Source: a virus
IMG/VR virus record: IMGVR_UViG_3300002140_000218
Coordinates: 1 to 22,997 of that record
Strand: one strand, 5' to 3'
DNA length: 22,997 nt
The position numbers and the translations under genes are program-made. Of the stretch, positions 17,869 through 22,448 are shown one piece after another; within the stretch, counting starts at the first letter, position 1; every line of letters begins with the position of its first letter. The notes below the pieces were generated by a model. It was not told the DNA's origin. It did not search any database and was given only the letters and a program-made list of their open reading frames with translations.

Positions 17869-18486
17869 ATGTCAGTTGCAAGTTTAACAAAATTTACAGT
17901 TCCATTGGCTACAGACCAAAGTGCATCGTCGCAAGGTTTGTTAATGCCAAAACTAAGCTATCGATTCCGTGCAAGTTTCGATAACTTTGGCGTTGGTCAG
18001 CCGAAATCAGAATTAACCAAACAAGTAGTAAGTATTAGTCGTCCGCAAGTTAGCTTTAACCCGATTACAATTGATACGTACAACAGTAAAGTTTACTTAC
18101 AAGGTAAACCGGAGTGGCAAGAAGTTAACGTTACATTGCGTGACGATGCAAGCGGTGCAGTTGCACGCCTAGTAGGTGAACAGATCCAGAAGCAATTTGA
18201 CTTTATGGAACAAGCTAGTGCAGCAAGTGGCATTGACTATAAGTTCTTGCTTCGTTATGAAGTATTAGACGGTGGCAACGGTGCCCAAGCACCTAATATT
18301 TTAGAAACATGGGAAATGTATGGTTGCATGTTGTCTAACGTAAATTATGGCGAAATGTCATATGATAATAACGAACCTTTAACTATCCAACTAACTATTC
18401 GATTCGATAATGCTATCCAATCTCCGGTTGGTGTTGGCGTTGGCACTCTAGTAGGACGTACAGTAGCAGGCGCTATCACTGGATAA
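17869..18486 (+). CDS. 19: Tail tube protein gp19
   Basis: A 205-residue tube subunit (T4 gp19 has 163). The tube-fold core is clear: a first strand Y-R-F-R-A-S-F-D-N-F, then K-Q-V-V-S-I-S-R-P-Q-V-S-F (51-63), Y-N-S-K-V-Y-L (71-77), W-Q-E-V-N-V-T-L-R-D-D (83-93). A helix with I-Q-K-Q-F-D-F and a late W-E-M-Y-G-C-M-L-S-N-V-N-Y-G segment follow. The protein stacks as hexamer rings inside the sheath and forms the DNA channel. It follows the sheath gene as in T4. It has its own late promoter and very strong ribosome site and is followed by a strong terminator, as suits a high-copy virion protein. Confidence 0.93.
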   Translation: MSVASLTKFTVPLATDQSASSQGLLMPKLSYRFRASFDNFGVGQPKSELTKQVVSISRPQVSFNPITIDTYNSKVYLQGKPEWQEVNVTLRDDASGAVARLVGEQIQKQFDFMEQASAASGIDYKFLLRYEVLDGGNGAQAPNILETWEMYGCMLSNVNYGEMSYDNNEPLTIQLTIRFDNAIQSPVGVGVGTLVGRTVAGAITG

Positions 18487-18548
18487 TCCAGACGACGCTT
18501 TATAATAATATTAGTTTAGCATCTATTGCTACTGTGCATGTAAATTTG

Positions 18549-18579
18549 AACCCGGGTATAAAAACCCGGGTTTCTTTTT
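18549..18579 (+). terminator. Intrinsic terminator after tail tube gene
   Basis: AACCCGGGT and ACCCGGGTT pair perfectly around a six-base loop and are followed by TTCTTTTT. The stem has six G-C pairs. It ends the tube transcript 93 bases past the stop. Confidence 0.9.
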
Positions 18580-18582
18580 GGC

Positions 18583-18589
18583 ATAAATA
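18583..18589 (+). promoter_or_regulatory. Putative late promoter, five bases from the ATG
   Basis: GGCATAAATAATGTTATG places ATAAATA (18583-18589) exactly five bases before the ATG at 18595, right after the tube terminator. If the T4 spacing holds, transcription starts at the A of the ATG and there is no leader or ribosome site. Confidence 0.6.
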
Positions 18590-18594
18590 ATGTT

Positions 18595-19941
18595 ATGAAT
18601 ATTAATCAATTCTTAAAGCAGTTAACCACTGGAGACACAGTAAAGGATTATCAACATGCAAGTAAGTTGTTTGTTGCGGATACCTACAAGCTGAGTCCAA
18701 AGTATGGTTTTCTGTACCATGTTGCATTTGATTTAGCTCCTGAAATAGCCAAGACTCCAAGTACACAGCAGATGGAGTTAGGTATGTTAGTGAAAGCCGC
18801 AACATTACCGTCGTTTAAGATTGATGTTAAAAAAACAAACGCATACAACAGACCTAGCTTTTCGCAAACAAAAGTAAATTACGATGAAGTACGCATTACG
18901 TTTCATGATGACTCTGCAGATGTAGTTAGAAATTTTTGGTATGATTACTATTCGTATTTTTATCGCGATAGTGACTATACCGAAAATGTTTACCGTGCAG
19001 GCCATAAGTACCAACCGAGGCAAGCGCAAACGTTTGGATATACCCCAAGAGACTACCCGTCAACCAATGGGCAATTACAATTTATTAATGCTATACGATT
19101 ATACAGCTTACATCAGAAGCAGTTTAGCGAATATATTTTAATTAACCCGATCATCACTAGTTTTAAGCACGGTGAGCATCGATCGGATGCAAGTGATTTA
19201 ATGACACACGAAATGACTATTGCATACGAAACAGTTAAGTATGCAACAGGTTATGTAACAGAAGAAAGTGTCAAGGGATTTGCTACATTACACTACGATA
19301 ATCAGCCGAGTCCTCTAACCCCGGCAGGCGGCGGGACTAATAGTATTGCTGGTCCGGGTGGATTGCTAGATACTGCAAGTAGTGTTGTCACTGACCTATC
19401 CGAAGGTAACTTTGCAAGTGCATTATTCAAAGGCGGTAGAGGGTTACAAAACTTTAAAAATGCTGATCTCAGCGCAATTGCTGGTGCCGAGTTAATGCAA
19501 GCTGGTAAGGATATCCTGTCAGGGCAAAATCCATTGGATCGTATGCAGGTGCCTTCGTTGTCGGCATTGTCTAAGACAGTAACTAGTGCCATTGGTATGA
19601 CCCAAGGCGGAGCCACTGCTGGTATGGATGATAATGCGCTAGCTCAAAATGCACGAATGATAGGTGGCTTAAGCCCTAATGTATCGAGTAACGGTGATTT
19701 CTTAAGCAACGCTTCTGCATTCGGATCTGATTTGTTAAAGTCAGTAAGCAATTTTGCACCGTCGTTACCAACTAGTCTGGGATCGTGGAGTAATCCACTG
19801 GGGCTATCCAAAGCAGTAGAAGGCGGAATTAGAGCACTACAGGATCCAAATGCTCCTCCTTATACAGGCGACGATCCAATTATTAGAGCACGATTAGGGC
19901 TACCTCCTGTTAACGAACTAGACGATGGGGACTTTTCTTAA
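18595..19941 (+). CDS. Baseplate-tail tube junction protein, gp48/gp54-like
   Basis: A 448-residue protein whose N-terminal 110-220 residues resemble the tube protein beside it. P72 ... Y84-N85 ... Y-D-E-V ... T-F-H-D-D (96-106) lines up with P59 ... Y71-N72 ... W-Q-E-V ... T-L-R-D-D in gp19. In T4, gp48 and gp54 are tube-fold proteins that start the tail tube on the baseplate, so this is the likely role; which of the two it is I cannot say. The second half (residues about 240-430) is low-complexity, rich in G, S, A and L, with amphipathic stretches. The next gene's ATG overlaps the stop (TAATG). It has no ribosome site and may be translated from a leaderless mRNA. Confidence 0.65.
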   Translation: MNINQFLKQLTTGDTVKDYQHASKLFVADTYKLSPKYGFLYHVAFDLAPEIAKTPSTQQMELGMLVKAATLPSFKIDVKKTNAYNRPSFSQTKVNYDEVRITFHDDSADVVRNFWYDYYSYFYRDSDYTENVYRAGHKYQPRQAQTFGYTPRDYPSTNGQLQFINAIRLYSLHQKQFSEYILINPIITSFKHGEHRSDASDLMTHEMTIAYETVKYATGYVTEESVKGFATLHYDNQPSPLTPAGGGTNSIAGPGGLLDTASSVVTDLSEGNFASALFKGGRGLQNFKNADLSAIAGAELMQAGKDILSGQNPLDRMQVPSLSALSKTVTSAIGMTQGGATAGMDDNALAQNARMIGGLSPNVSSNGDFLSNASAFGSDLLKSVSNFAPSLPTSLGSWSNPLGLSKAVEGGIRALQDPNAPPYTGDDPIIRARLGLPPVNELDDGDFS

Positions 19942-20324
19942 TGTCGTACGATTCACTACCAAGTAATATATCCTCGATTAGTATTAGTCAAGCGGATAAA
20001 GATATAAGAACATATTTTACAAACTATTTTAATCGTATTGTTGATATTTCGTCGGGGCAACACGACGTCATTTTATCTTATTTTGAAAAATTTACAAATA
20101 ACAAAGTTGCCGCTGAAGCTCTAGCTAGTGCTATTATATACACTGCACAAAATCAACGACAAGATCCTATTCAAGTGCTAGAGTACTTTACAACACTTGA
20201 AGTTGGTAAGTTAAATTCGTACCTTTGTATGTTTTTAAACTTAAATAGAGTAGGTACTAGCTTATTAGGTATAAACAATCGCCAAGTACGAAATAAATAT
20301 GTAAAAAGAAACATAATTTCATGA
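19941..20324 (+). CDS. Small structural protein, possibly gp26-like baseplate component
   Basis: A 127-residue protein with overlaps at both ends: its ATG shares bases with the preceding stop and its TGA overlaps the gp4 ATG. It has an early helix (A-D-K-D-I-R-T-Y-F-T-N-Y-F-N-R-I), then A-S-A-I-I-Y-T-A-Q-N-Q-R-Q-D-P-I-Q-V-L-E-Y-F. The C-terminal L-N-S-Y-L-C-M-F-L-N-L-N-R-V-G-T-S-L-L-G is followed by Y-V-K-R-N-I. The ending resembles short baseplate or hub proteins (gp26/gp51 type) that I recall from marine T4-like phages. The assignment is from memory and uncertain; a virion role is supported by its operon. Confidence 0.55.
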   Translation: MSYDSLPSNISSISISQADKDIRTYFTNYFNRIVDISSGQHDVILSYFEKFTNNKVAAEALASAIIYTAQNQRQDPIQVLEYFTTLEVGKLNSYLCMFLNLNRVGTSLLGINNRQVRNKYVKRNIIS

Positions 20325-20755
20325 GCAAGTATGCCCAAGGCAAGTTTCAGATAAAAAATTCCGAAAAGTATGTTGGTAAGCATAGCCCAACTTACCGTAG
20401 CAGTTGGGAGCATGTGTTTATGACATTTTGCGACAATAATCCCAACATACTTAAATGGGCTAGCGAAGCAGTACGTATTAACTATAGAAATCCGTTTACT
20501 GGGAAGAACACAATATACGTTCCGGATTTCTTGATTTATTATATTGACAAAGGTGGGCACCATCATGCTGATGTAATAGAAGTTAAGCCTCGGAAAGAAA
20601 CTAACCTCGAGGAGGCAAAAAGTCCACGAGACAAAGCATACGCAGTATTGAATATGGTAAAATGGGAAGCAGCTCGTGCTTGGTGCAAGCAACAGGGTTT
20701 AAACTTCAGAATTATTACCGAAGATCAGATATTTCACCAAGGAAAAGGTAAATAA
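20321..20755 (+). CDS. 4: Head completion nuclease gp4
   Basis: A 144-residue protein matching T4 gp4 (about 150). It begins G-K-F-Q-I-K-N-S-E-K-Y-V-G, then Y-R-S-S-W-E-H-V-F-M-T-F-C-D-N-N-P-N-I. The nuclease core follows: E30, V-P-D-F (D69) and V-I-E-V-K-P (E87, K89), the PD-(D/E)xK pattern of TnsA-like endonucleases. In T4 gp4 acts after packaging, with gp2, to finish the head so a tail can attach. It is translated by coupling to the previous gene (ATGA overlap). A late box overlaps its stop codon. Confidence 0.9.
   Translation: MSKYAQGKFQIKNSEKYVGKHSPTYRSSWEHVFMTFCDNNPNILKWASEAVRINYRNPFTGKNTIYVPDFLIYYIDKGGHHHADVIEVKPRKETNLEEAKSPRDKAYAVLNMVKWEAARAWCKQQGLNFRIITEDQIFHQGKGK
20749..20754 (+). 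promoter_or_regulatory. Putative late promoter for the TRAP-binding protein
   Basis: GGTAAATAATAC overlaps the last codons and stop of gp4. A start near 20760 would give an 88-base leader, the longest in the window, with a hairpin at 20765-20783, a TTTTCCGGAAAA palindrome (20812-20823) and a TAGGAGA ribosome site. Confidence 0.5.
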
Positions 20756-20847
20756 TACTGAAGACGTAGTTTCGACAACTATGTTAATCAGATGAGGTTA
20801 TCTACCTTTCTTTTCCGGAAAAAAAAATCACTAGGAGATAAAAATAA

Positions 20848-21801
20848 ATGTCACAAGTAAAGAAAATCCGTTGGGTGCTAGCACATGAGCCAATCGAGCT
20901 TTTCATTCGTGCCGCTAAAGTTTTTGAAGCAGAAATTGCTGAAAAAGCCGCTGGTAAGTTTGAAATCGAAGTAATGACTCTTGCTGAGTACTCTGCAAAA
21001 TACAACGATGGTAAAATCGTTACTAAGCACGAACTAGTTGATCTATTAGACGCTGGTAAAATTGAAATGTCACAGACATACACAGTTTCACTAGGTCAGA
21101 TCTGCCCAGACTTCCGTGCATTAGATCTACCATTCTTGTTTAAAGATCACGACCATGCTAGCCGCGTATTCGAAGGCGAAGTTGGTGCAAGTCTACTAGA
21201 CGGCCTAGAGCAGTCTGGTAAAGGCGTTAAAGGTCTAGCATTTACATACAGCGGCGGCTTCCGTATTGTCCCAGGACAAGAAGCTGTTAACAAGATCGAA
21301 GATCTACGTGGTATGAAAGTTCGCACATCATTCTCACCAGTTGCTATTGATACATTCAAAGCACTTGGCGCTGATGTAGTTCCAATGGAACTTGAAGAGC
21401 TATCTGAAGGTATTGCAAACGCTGATGTAACAATCGGTGAAAGCACATACCCACGTGTTTACGCACTAGGTCAGAACAAAGTATCTAAAGTTGTTAACCA
21501 CACTGAGCACAGTTTGTTCCTAACTTCTATCCTAGTTGGTAGCAAAGTTTGGGAATCTTTATCTGCAGAAGAGCAAGCAATTGTTGCCGATGCTGCTAAA
21601 GTTGCCGCAAGACACGAACGTGAAATCAGTATCGCTGACGTTGCACTAACACAGGCACGTTGCGAGCAAGACGGTATTGAAGTTGTACGCCTAAGCAAAG
21701 AAGAGCAAGCTCGCTTTGCTGATGCAACAGCACATCTGTATACCCAAGTTGAGTCATACGGCATTAACCCAACAGTTGTTGATGCAATTAAGCGTGCTTA
21801 A
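20848..21801 (+). CDS. TRAP-type solute-binding protein (DctP family) without signal peptide
   Basis: A 317-residue protein with the DctP-family pattern: first strand K-I-R-W-V-L-A-H, a long helix with F-I-R-A-A-K-V-F, G-K-F-E-I-E-V, then L-D-L-P-F-L-F-K-D (92-100). It continues with G-L-A-F-T-Y-S-G-G-F-R, D-L-R-G-M-K-V-R (152-159), L-G-A-D-V-V-P-M (173-180) and L-S-A-E-E-Q. R159 aligns with the arginine that binds the ligand carboxylate in characterised members. In bacteria these proteins are periplasmic and feed a membrane permease. Here the protein begins at the first strand of the mature fold, and an in-frame TAA (20845-20847) directly before the ATG excludes a signal peptide. It should stay in the cytoplasm or enter the virion. 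TAGGAGA precedes the ATG. It has its own promoter and terminator. Ligand and role unknown. Confidence 0.88.
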   Translation: MSQVKKIRWVLAHEPIELFIRAAKVFEAEIAEKAAGKFEIEVMTLAEYSAKYNDGKIVTKHELVDLLDAGKIEMSQTYTVSLGQICPDFRALDLPFLFKDHDHASRVFEGEVGASLLDGLEQSGKGVKGLAFTYSGGFRIVPGQEAVNKIEDLRGMKVRTSFSPVAIDTFKALGADVVPMELEELSEGIANADVTIGESTYPRVYALGQNKVSKVVNHTEHSLFLTSILVGSKVWESLSAEEQAIVADAAKVAARHEREISIADVALTQARCEQDGIEVVRLSKEEQARFADATAHLYTQVESYGINPTVVDAIKRA

Positions 21802-21814
21802 TTGATTAAAACTT

Positions 21815-21845
21815 AAAAAAAAGGCACCGCAAGGTGCCTTTTTTT
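21815..21845 (+). terminator. Intrinsic terminator with GCAA loop
   Basis: AAGGCACC-GCAA-GGTGCCTT with an A-run before and seven T after; a GNRA tetraloop closes the stem. It lies 14 bases past the stop of the TRAP-binding protein gene and may work in both directions. Confidence 0.94.
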
Positions 21846-21899: not shown

Positions 21900-22448
21900 A
21901 TGACTAAAAAACTCGAAGATTTCTTTAATATCGATAATACACAACCAGACGATATTGAGCCAGCCTACCCAGACGATGACGGTCCGCTAACCACTGATCA
22001 ACTCGAACAGGTGCAACGTTCAGTGACAGTTAGTTCAGCGACTATAAGAGAAGTAGATGCAGCCATTGAAAAGATCGACGTTGCATTGCCTACTATTCGA
22101 GATCTAGATGCTAGTGATGCAGAGATGGACGACCTTGCTAAACTAGCTCAAGAAAAATTTCAGGACTTAATGGATCTAGGCATGAACGTAGAGCCGAGAT
22201 TCAGCGGAGTTATACTACAGACAGCTAGCACTTTACTAGGGCATGCAATCACCGCAAAGACAGCAAAGATAGATAAAAAATTAAAAATGGTACAGTTGCA
22301 ATTACAAAAAGCAAAACTAGACCAGCAGATTAAAAAAGAAAATAAAGCAAACGAAAATGATGCCGACGAGCCACTAAGTGGCACAGGCATGATAATTGAT
22401 AGGGATACATTGTTGAAGCAAATCCTTGACGCAAGTAAAAAAGATTAA
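21900..22448 (+). CDS. Probable terminase small subunit gp16
   Basis: A 182-residue, highly charged, mostly helical protein. It has an acidic N-terminus (N-I-D-N-T-Q-P-D-D-I-E-P-A-Y-P-D-D-D-G), then I-R-D-L-D-A-S-D-A-E-M-D-D-L-A-K-L-A-Q-E-K-F. M-N-V-E-P-R-F-S-G-V-I, a T-A-S-T-L-L-G-H-A-I-T-A-K segment and a K-rich coiled-coil stretch (about 120-148) follow. The central helical pair with a conserved E-P-R-x-S-G turn is what I remember from gp16 proteins of marine T4-like phages; T4 gp16 is 164 residues. gp16 forms rings that bind DNA and regulate the large terminase. No large terminase is in the window. It could also be another small structural protein. Confidence 0.6.
   Translation: MTKKLEDFFNIDNTQPDDIEPAYPDDDGPLTTDQLEQVQRSVTVSSATIREVDAAIEKIDVALPTIRDLDASDAEMDDLAKLAQEKFQDLMDLGMNVEPRFSGVILQTASTLLGHAITAKTAKIDKKLKMVQLQLQKAKLDQQIKKENKANENDADEPLSGTGMIIDRDTLLKQILDASKKD

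Follow-up and report, generated by a model that had tools for sequence, protein, structure and literature searches.

A signal-less TRAP-type solute-binding protein of T4-like phages as a candidate cytoplasmic carboxylate-binding protein

A gene on a viral DNA stretch of 22,997 nucleotides (IMG/VR record IMGVR_UViG_3300002140_000218, positions 1 to 22,997; this whole stretch is called the window here) encodes a complete solute-binding protein (SBP) of the tripartite ATP-independent periplasmic (TRAP) or DctP type that starts without a signal peptide. SBPs are textbook extracytoplasmic proteins. With a probability of about 0.5, we read the phage protein as a cytoplasmic, stoichiometric binding protein for small carboxylates that T4-like phages have built on the TRAP SBP fold. 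A preliminary description of the window had noticed the gene and argued that this copy should do something other than transport. The observation of a complete signal-less TRAP SBP gene is confirmed here and the argument against transport is supported; the interpretation as a whole is partly supported.

Results

The window encodes a complete TRAP-type SBP without signal peptide

The gene occupies positions 20848-21801 on the plus strand and encodes a protein of 317 amino acids. The product belongs to the Pfam family DctP (PF03480), which it matches with E = 3e-49 and 168.3 bits at a curated cut-off of 23.4. It also exceeds the cut-off of the NCBIfam family TRAP_S1 (137.4 bits, cut-off 50) and stays below that of TIGR00787 dctP (139.8, cut-off 175), while its PHROG match, PHROG_31178, is annotated as function unknown. 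AlphaFold modeled the protein with a mean pLDDT of 96.2 and a pTM of 0.92, and the best 50 PDB matches of this model are all TRAP-type, full length and in the TM range of 0.78-0.88, with 4p47 at E = 4.2e-26 and TM 0.87. Alignments of the model to solved TRAP binding proteins reached Z scores of 33.6-36.3 across about 300 residues. The nearest PDB sequence is 4xfe, followed by 4p47, 4pdd, and 4n8y, and the structural matches include 7bbr/7bco, which are titled sugar-acid binders. As modeled, the two-domain TRAP SBP fold is complete, so that profile and full-length structure matches both bear out the DctP resemblance claimed in the preliminary description.

An in-frame TAA stop codon at 20845-20847 (plus strand) directly abuts the ATG and leaves no room for a signal peptide, as had been noted before. 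The gene is under purifying selection, with dN/dS values of 0.20-0.23 against the relatives L003, L007, and L008 and of 0.15 against L013; the comparison with L075 is saturated. We rejected a chance or mis-called open reading frame (ORF) because of the DctP profile match, the confident model and a dN/dS of about 0.2. A truncated pseudogene that has lost its signal was rejected since the short start is common to all 80 loci of the scan described below and dN/dS is about 0.2.

Signal-less SBPs form a phage subfamily with cellular relatives

An IMG/VR contig of 170,893 bp (record G004) carries the SBP gene of the window at 100% identity and contains gp23 and the large terminase gene. This record of the window's phage encodes a second signal-less SBP copy, 46% identical to the first, and three PP-loop ORFs. 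No gene for the TRAP membrane component DctM (PF06808) was found in this record, the completeness of which is not established. Misassembly of host DNA into a viral contig was rejected as an explanation since gp23 is present in 16 of 50 records, SBP and PP-loop ORFs occur together in all eight records fetched whole, and the SBP gene lies in a gp4/terminase context.

Relatives were collected from IMG/VR in a first scan (best 80 of 109) and a profile-based wider scan (best 80 of 439), so that the sequences lean toward close relatives. Signal peptides were judged from the start position, with a hydrophobicity script and by eye; L284 and L103 were assigned to the signal-bearing class by hand, and sequences shorter than 225 amino acids (including L103) and repeats were removed before counting. 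In all 80 first-scan phage loci an in-frame stop lies upstream and the ATG stands 5-8 residues before the Trp of the first strand. Likewise, each of the 82 distinct phage sequences is signal-less and starts just ahead of the mature domain, and the phage homologs with signal peptides that the preliminary description had named as evidence against its reading were found in neither set. The cellular sequences divide into 28 with a signal and 11 without one. A further in-frame ATG is present upstream in 9 of the 80 loci (L014, L016, L020, L026, L035, L055, L063, L074, and L080), and the extended frames of L035, L063, and L082 contain a hydrophobic run. A longer, signal-bearing start was rejected for the latter three, each of which has an ATG and a purine-rich stretch at the short start.

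A pattern-based scan of 84,980 genomes yielded just 28 loci, all in records titled as metagenome-assembled genomes (MAGs), which indicates that close kin of the SBP are far less common in cells than among the viral records. Of 369 genomes sampled from the class of L088, one, the centre itself, had the gene at E<=1e-60, and a phylum sample around L094 gave 14 of 290 at E<=1e-40. The nearest cellular kin are titled Bacteriovoracaceae or Bacteriovorax, and in these proteins signal-peptide-like N-termini precede the [IVA][RK]W[VL]LAHEP start. In a quick tree search with 85 sequences, in which outer sequences sit on long branches, 46 phage and nine cellular signal-less sequences form one side of a branch with an SH-aLRT support of 85. 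The signal-bearing Bdellovibrionota cousins are the nearest side branch, the signal-less cellular sequences L097 and L106 fall apart from the main signal-less group, and the signal state needs two changes on this tree.

In a collection of 50,697 cultured phage records, 15 matched the window SBP by tblastn, at no more than 34.7% identity. These matches read as bacterial DNA in unannotated fragments or as bacterial contigs; OR845268, OR847573, OR848427, and similar INPHARED entries, for instance, have TRAP genes in unannotated fragments and look like bacterial DNA that was deposited as phage. Among the cellular kin, L085 and L097 each have an NMT1-type binding protein with ABC-like neighbours close by, and L083 lies near an AMP-ligase and a carrier-protein-like gene that scores just below the cut-off.

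The putative binding residues are largely conserved

The window SBP contains the motif DLRGMKVR, which the preliminary description had singled out as the ligand-binding arginine motif. R159 within this motif and R139, 20 positions before it, do not vary among the 40 aligned phage copies; in a wider phage set besides the window, R159 is present in 41 of 45 sequences and R139 in 44. By motif, we take R159 to be the equivalent of the carboxylate-binding R147 of SiaP. The pocket was assessed through conserved residues, and judged by these arginines it has kept its binding residues, the loss of which would have spoken against the preliminary reading.

W9, H13, P15, TYSGG at 133-137, R139, E198, R203, H221, T226, E257, and R258 are near-uniform in 45 phage sequences, 11 signal-less cellular sequences and 14 nearer signal-bearing cellular sequences. 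This suggests that the binding site has been largely kept while the compartment of the protein changed.

Codon usage predicts capsid-like amounts of the SBP

With gp23 as the codon reference, we ranked all ORFs of at least 150 amino acids (84-192 per record) in the seven records that were fetched whole and have gp23; G006 was fetched whole as well and no gp23 was found in it. With gp23 at rank 1, the best SBP copy ranks second in G004, G007, G012, and G013 and third in G002, G003, and G005. After removal of gp23 and regression on the GC content at third codon positions, the SBP still ranks first or second in all seven records (of 83-191 ORFs). The product of rank/n is 1.4e-14, a nominal figure rather than a true probability since the phages are related. 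Both copies of the window's phage rank high (2 and 4 of 122), and the extra copies in other records stand at ranks 4 and 10 (G005) and 36 (G002). The PP-loop ORFs, by comparison, rank between 25 and 151. Codon usage therefore predicts that the SBP is made in capsid-like amounts.

Such amounts would also suit a virion protein, either a capsid decoration or an internal protein, with the SBP fold acting as a domain that is sticky or binds glycans or acids. The codon usage next to that of gp23 argues for this, as does the position in the window clade, where the SBP gene stands among head and packaging genes between gp4 and the large terminase gene. Yet the gene moves: it lies next to gp4 in the window clade, beside PP-loop genes elsewhere and, from our reading of marine records, next to UvsX/helicase-like genes. 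Moreover, signal-less cousins occur on contigs that read as bacterial chromosome, and the phage SBPs retain the signature residues just as the nearer exported cousins do, both of which argue against a structural role. Overall, we consider a virion protein unlikely.

PP-loop and other genes are linked to the SBP

Many SBP loci contain ORFs with the PP-loop motif SGGxDS. At least one such ORF lies in the fetched flanks (5 or 8 kb) of 60 of the 78 non-redundant viral SBP loci, a motif count made without a shuffled control. A distance test with a random-shift control covered eight whole records, with two PP-loop families defined by profile. Of the 25 PP-loop ORFs, 12 are no more than 5 kb away from an SBP gene, against an expectation of 2.3, and none of 5000 shifts gave as many. 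Without G006, the SBP of which is near-identical to that of G007 (316/319), 10 of 23 lie within this distance and two of 5000 shifts did as well. PP-loop genes stand beside the SBP on three cellular contigs, too (L082, L089, and L091). In the reverse direction, 22 of the 50 records (of 78 loci) reached via PP-loop family I carry an SBP, four of them known before, and the other 28, many of them fragments, do not; since family I was built from SBP-linked proteins, this co-occurrence count is biased.

In PP-loop family I, S112, G113, G114, D116, and S117 are invariant in 45 sequences. The model of this family is closest to TsnB9 and to beta-lactam, asparagine and carbapenam synthetases (best Z 12.0, 267 aligned residues, rmsd 4.8), and Foldseek returned no match at E<=0.001. 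The lack of a Foldseek match suggests that family I is a distant relative of these synthetases. One PP-loop protein matches Pfam Asn_synthase, only below the cut-off, and Pfam gave no match of any kind, and hence none to an N-terminal glutaminase domain, in four proteins of 224-401 amino acids from the window's phage. In this phage, two PP-loop genes (L190:16289-17470 and 18140-19345) alternate with genes for 224-227 amino acids without an assigned family (L190:16289-19988), and in our reading a 598-amino-acid ORF in L062 looks like a fusion of such a pair.

The linkage suggests that the SBP might deliver a carboxylate to the asparagine-synthetase-like PP-loop enzymes for adenylation and amide formation. 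The two genes are neighbours in many loci, the PP-loop model points to synthetases, and three PP-loop queries had no match in the 50,697 cultured phage records, where the SBP likewise finds nothing above the identity given above. Against delivery stand the widely different predicted expression of the two genes, their large distance in G004 and G005, and the 28 family I records without SBP, fragmentary as many are. We therefore regard this role as quite unlikely.

PADLOC had no match for the SBP and weak DndC/QueC/BrxA matches for two PP-loop proteins, and a defence link was rejected on these grounds. A membrane protein of about 84 amino acids (L040:3703-3960 and others) lies near the SBP in 30 of the 78 viral loci; the one member tested is a DUF2061 protein.

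On four cellular contigs (L086, L087, L092, and L100, from two Gammaproteobacteria and two Bacteriovoracaceae/Bacteriovorax MAGs), a gene of the major facilitator superfamily (MFS) and a gene for about 200 amino acids with an HxD motif precede a signal-less SBP; the MFS gene of L087 is cut by the contig end. All three MFS proteins tested exceed the oxalate/formate-antiporter cut-off. In five sequences of the approximately 200-amino-acid family, HTD, a His further along and an Arg are invariant, which we read as a 2-oxoglutarate-oxygenase-like triad, and the members tested had no match in Pfam and NCBIfam. These cellular neighbourhoods bear on the proposal that the SBP acts only after lysis on released solutes. 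The late-region context of the window gene would fit such a role, but signal-less cousins beside MFS genes on cellular contigs do not, and a freely diffusing protein would give no plausible benefit. We see hardly any chance for this explanation.

Related phages also encode exported binding proteins and split SBPs

Phages with a signal-less SBP can also encode exported binding proteins. Of the 78 SBP loci, 19 contain a member of a TctC-like cluster (e.g., L053:6018-6929 and L064:6049-6942). By eye, all 12 TctC/Bug-type members inspected have a signal-like N-terminus, and one of two tested exceeds the Pfam cut-off. Record G002 (244 kb, gp23 present) contains a complete phage TRAP transporter, consisting of DctQ, DctM, and a signal-bearing DctP and followed by a Rieske/ring-hydroxylase-type gene (L208:8759-14441); two signal-less SBP genes flank this set. 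Thus, in at least one phage, genes for exported and for non-exported binding proteins stand next to each other. In G002, G018, and G025, an SBP gene of the subfamily lies on either side of DctM. Altogether DctM was found in six of 50 records, one of these matches being partial and located at a contig end, and was not seen in the remaining 44.

These transporters raise the question of whether the SBP is an ordinary uptake helper that enters the periplasm along a non-classical route and supplies a TRAP transporter. Its fold and residues are those of transport SBPs, and DctM in six records, in G002 together with DctQ, would provide a partner. However, all 82 phage sequences lack a signal, the DctM of G002 comes with its own signal-bearing DctP, and the 44 records without DctM offer no such partner. 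The existence of signal-bearing cousins in cells further suggests that the signal-less state was kept. An uptake function is thus very unlikely. Instead, we count the lack of a signal peptide in phages that also encode exported binding proteins in favour of the cytoplasmic reading.

In some related phages the SBP is naturally split. In the four related records L303 (near 13171), L305, L307, and L311 a TAATAA abuts an ATG at the hinge, around model position 154, and L318:9603-11141 has one gene for the N half, a hairpin-like stretch and then two tandem genes for the C half. Among the four related records, synonymous codon changes exceed others in 12 of 12 half-by-half comparisons.

Local signals and neighbours of the SBP gene

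A Shine-Dalgarno sequence, AGGAG, lies at 20833-20837 (plus strand), in agreement with the ribosome site of the preliminary description. Downstream, positions 21816-21845 (plus strand) form a hairpin with a 13-bp stem, a GCAA loop and a flanking A-run and T-run, which folds at -19 kcal/mol (z = -5.15); none of 200 shuffles equals it, and a consensus terminator scan reports it on the minus strand only. A GNRA-loop terminator of its own, as proposed earlier, is thereby supported.

The late-type promoter claimed alongside it fared less well. In the window's phage (G004, L183-L191) the motif enriched upstream of genes is [GC]ATAAATA, with GATAAATA in 11 of 160 upstream regions and 14 times genome-wide. 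The strong enrichment of GATAAATA/CATAAATA 5' of ORFs makes these sequences the probable late promoter of this phage. Upstream of the SBP gene stands GTAAATAATA at 20748-20757 (plus strand), which overlaps the gp4 stop codon and resembles the enriched motif in a weaker form; the ORF at G004:49074 has the same stretch upstream. The promoter scan detected no sigma-70-like site upstream of the gene. TATAAATA, when one mismatch is allowed, occurs in the window less often than expected by chance, and its nearest match upstream of the SBP gene, TAAAAATA, falls within the spacer between ribosome-binding site and ATG. Both were consequently rejected as the SBP promoter, and a late promoter of its own is no more than plausible for this gene.

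The upstream neighbour (20321-20755, plus strand) encodes a gp4-like head-closure protein (PHROG_218, 2.6e-41; PF08722, TnsA-like nuclease), as described earlier. The downstream neighbour (21900-22448, plus strand) encodes 182 amino acids that match only PHROG_16202, a PHROG of unknown function, and its earlier designation as probable gp16 is unproven; the large terminase gene lies about 4 kb downstream. The genes at 17869-18486 and 18595-19941 encode tail-tube-like proteins, both matching PHROG_4542, the second of which is much longer (448 amino acids) and the weaker match. The term self-contained cassette misses the association with PP-loop genes in many relatives, the second copy in the window's phage and the very high expression predicted from codon usage.

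Discussion

We propose that the SBP would be made in large amounts in the host cytoplasm late in infection and would close on a small carboxylate there. Instead of being handed to a membrane transporter, the carboxylate may be buffered or sequestered, the protein acting as a metabolite buffer or sponge. Sequestration or buffering is favoured because the predicted expression of the SBP is well above that of the linked genes. More tentatively, the ligand could be consumed or made by the linked carboxylate-activating enzymes, by which the phage would steer one small-acid pool. Among the functions suggested by the preliminary description, holding a carboxylate in the cytoplasm fits best and a place in the virion is possible, while action after lysis finds no support of its own.

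Several findings weigh against the cytoplasmic reading. Several other top-ranked ORFs are virion genes (gp23 by PHROG, the others in our own reading), so that capsid-like codon usage fits a virion protein too; these virion-like ORFs make the virion model the strongest rival. The PP-loop link is absent from 18 of the 78 loci, and the separation in the window's phage and G005 was mentioned above. The mostly ordinary codon usage of the PP-loop genes renders a stoichiometric complex of both proteins unlikely. Similarly, the signal-less gammaproteobacterial copy L088 is without MFS and HxD neighbours. The binding residues show exceptions as well: R159 is lost in four of 45 phage and four of 14 nearer signal-bearing sequences, R139, E198, and R203 are kept in only 9-10 of 14 farther signal-bearing sequences, and a diverged copy (G002:108759-109838, codon rank 36 of 192) has VQT at the position of R159.

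A more detailed version of the cytoplasmic reading, which we put forward as a tentative possibility, sees the SBP as the first of a new class of phage metabolite sponges, in which a periplasmic transport receptor was turned into a capsid-abundant cytoplasmic trap for a carboxylate that serves as signal, nutrient or antiviral host product. In many phages it would be paired with asparagine-synthetase-like enzymes that work on the small-acid pool it draws from. Some phages encode the N and C halves separately, divided at the hinge, and in one case the C half is duplicated.

If the cytoplasmic reading is true, the signal-less SBPs of hundreds of phage contigs, whose predicted abundance is among the highest of all phage products, would be an example of transport receptors that have taken on a new role as metabolite traps inside the cell. 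They would also direct attention to a small acid over which T4-like phages of uncultured bacteria need control. Our findings further caution against labeling signal-less phage SBP genes as auxiliary metabolic genes for uptake. In the open-access literature, a scope that leaves aside most subscription journals and preprints, our search turned up no phage family of signal-less TRAP SBPs. The only related statement found is a passing mention of a TRAP-receptor-like gene in Ralstonia jumbo phages, listed beside ABC transporter subunits; like the SBP described here it is phage-borne, and the passage in question does not mention a signal peptide. As the 15 records that the window SBP matched by tblastn include no Ralstonia phage, this gene probably belongs to another subfamily.

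With the known DctP/TRAP-T SBPs (PF03480; 4p47, 4xfe, 4n8y, the sugar-acid binder 7bbr/7bco, and SiaP), the phage SBP shares the whole fold, the two arginines 20 residues apart and a conserved Glu region. In contrast to a TRAP transporter subunit, it has neither an export signal, given the in-frame stop and the signal-less phage sequences, nor a DctM partner in the 170,893-bp record. It further differs in being phage-borne, in its capsid-like codon usage and in a signature of its own (WV[LI]AHEP, FTYSGG[FY]R, and ESTYxR). The cousins in Bacteriovoracaceae and other Bdellovibrionota (L083, L085, L090, L094, and others) have most signature residues in common with it but, by eye and hydrophobicity script, possess signal peptides. 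The phage metabolite sponges Tad1/Tad2 and Acb2 have other folds and bind nucleotides. The SBP shares with them the absence of an export signal and the working idea that a phage protein made in abundance takes a small molecule out of circulation in the cytoplasm. PADLOC, with no match for the SBP, gave no sign of an anti-defence role, and the fold suggests a small carboxylate as the ligand.

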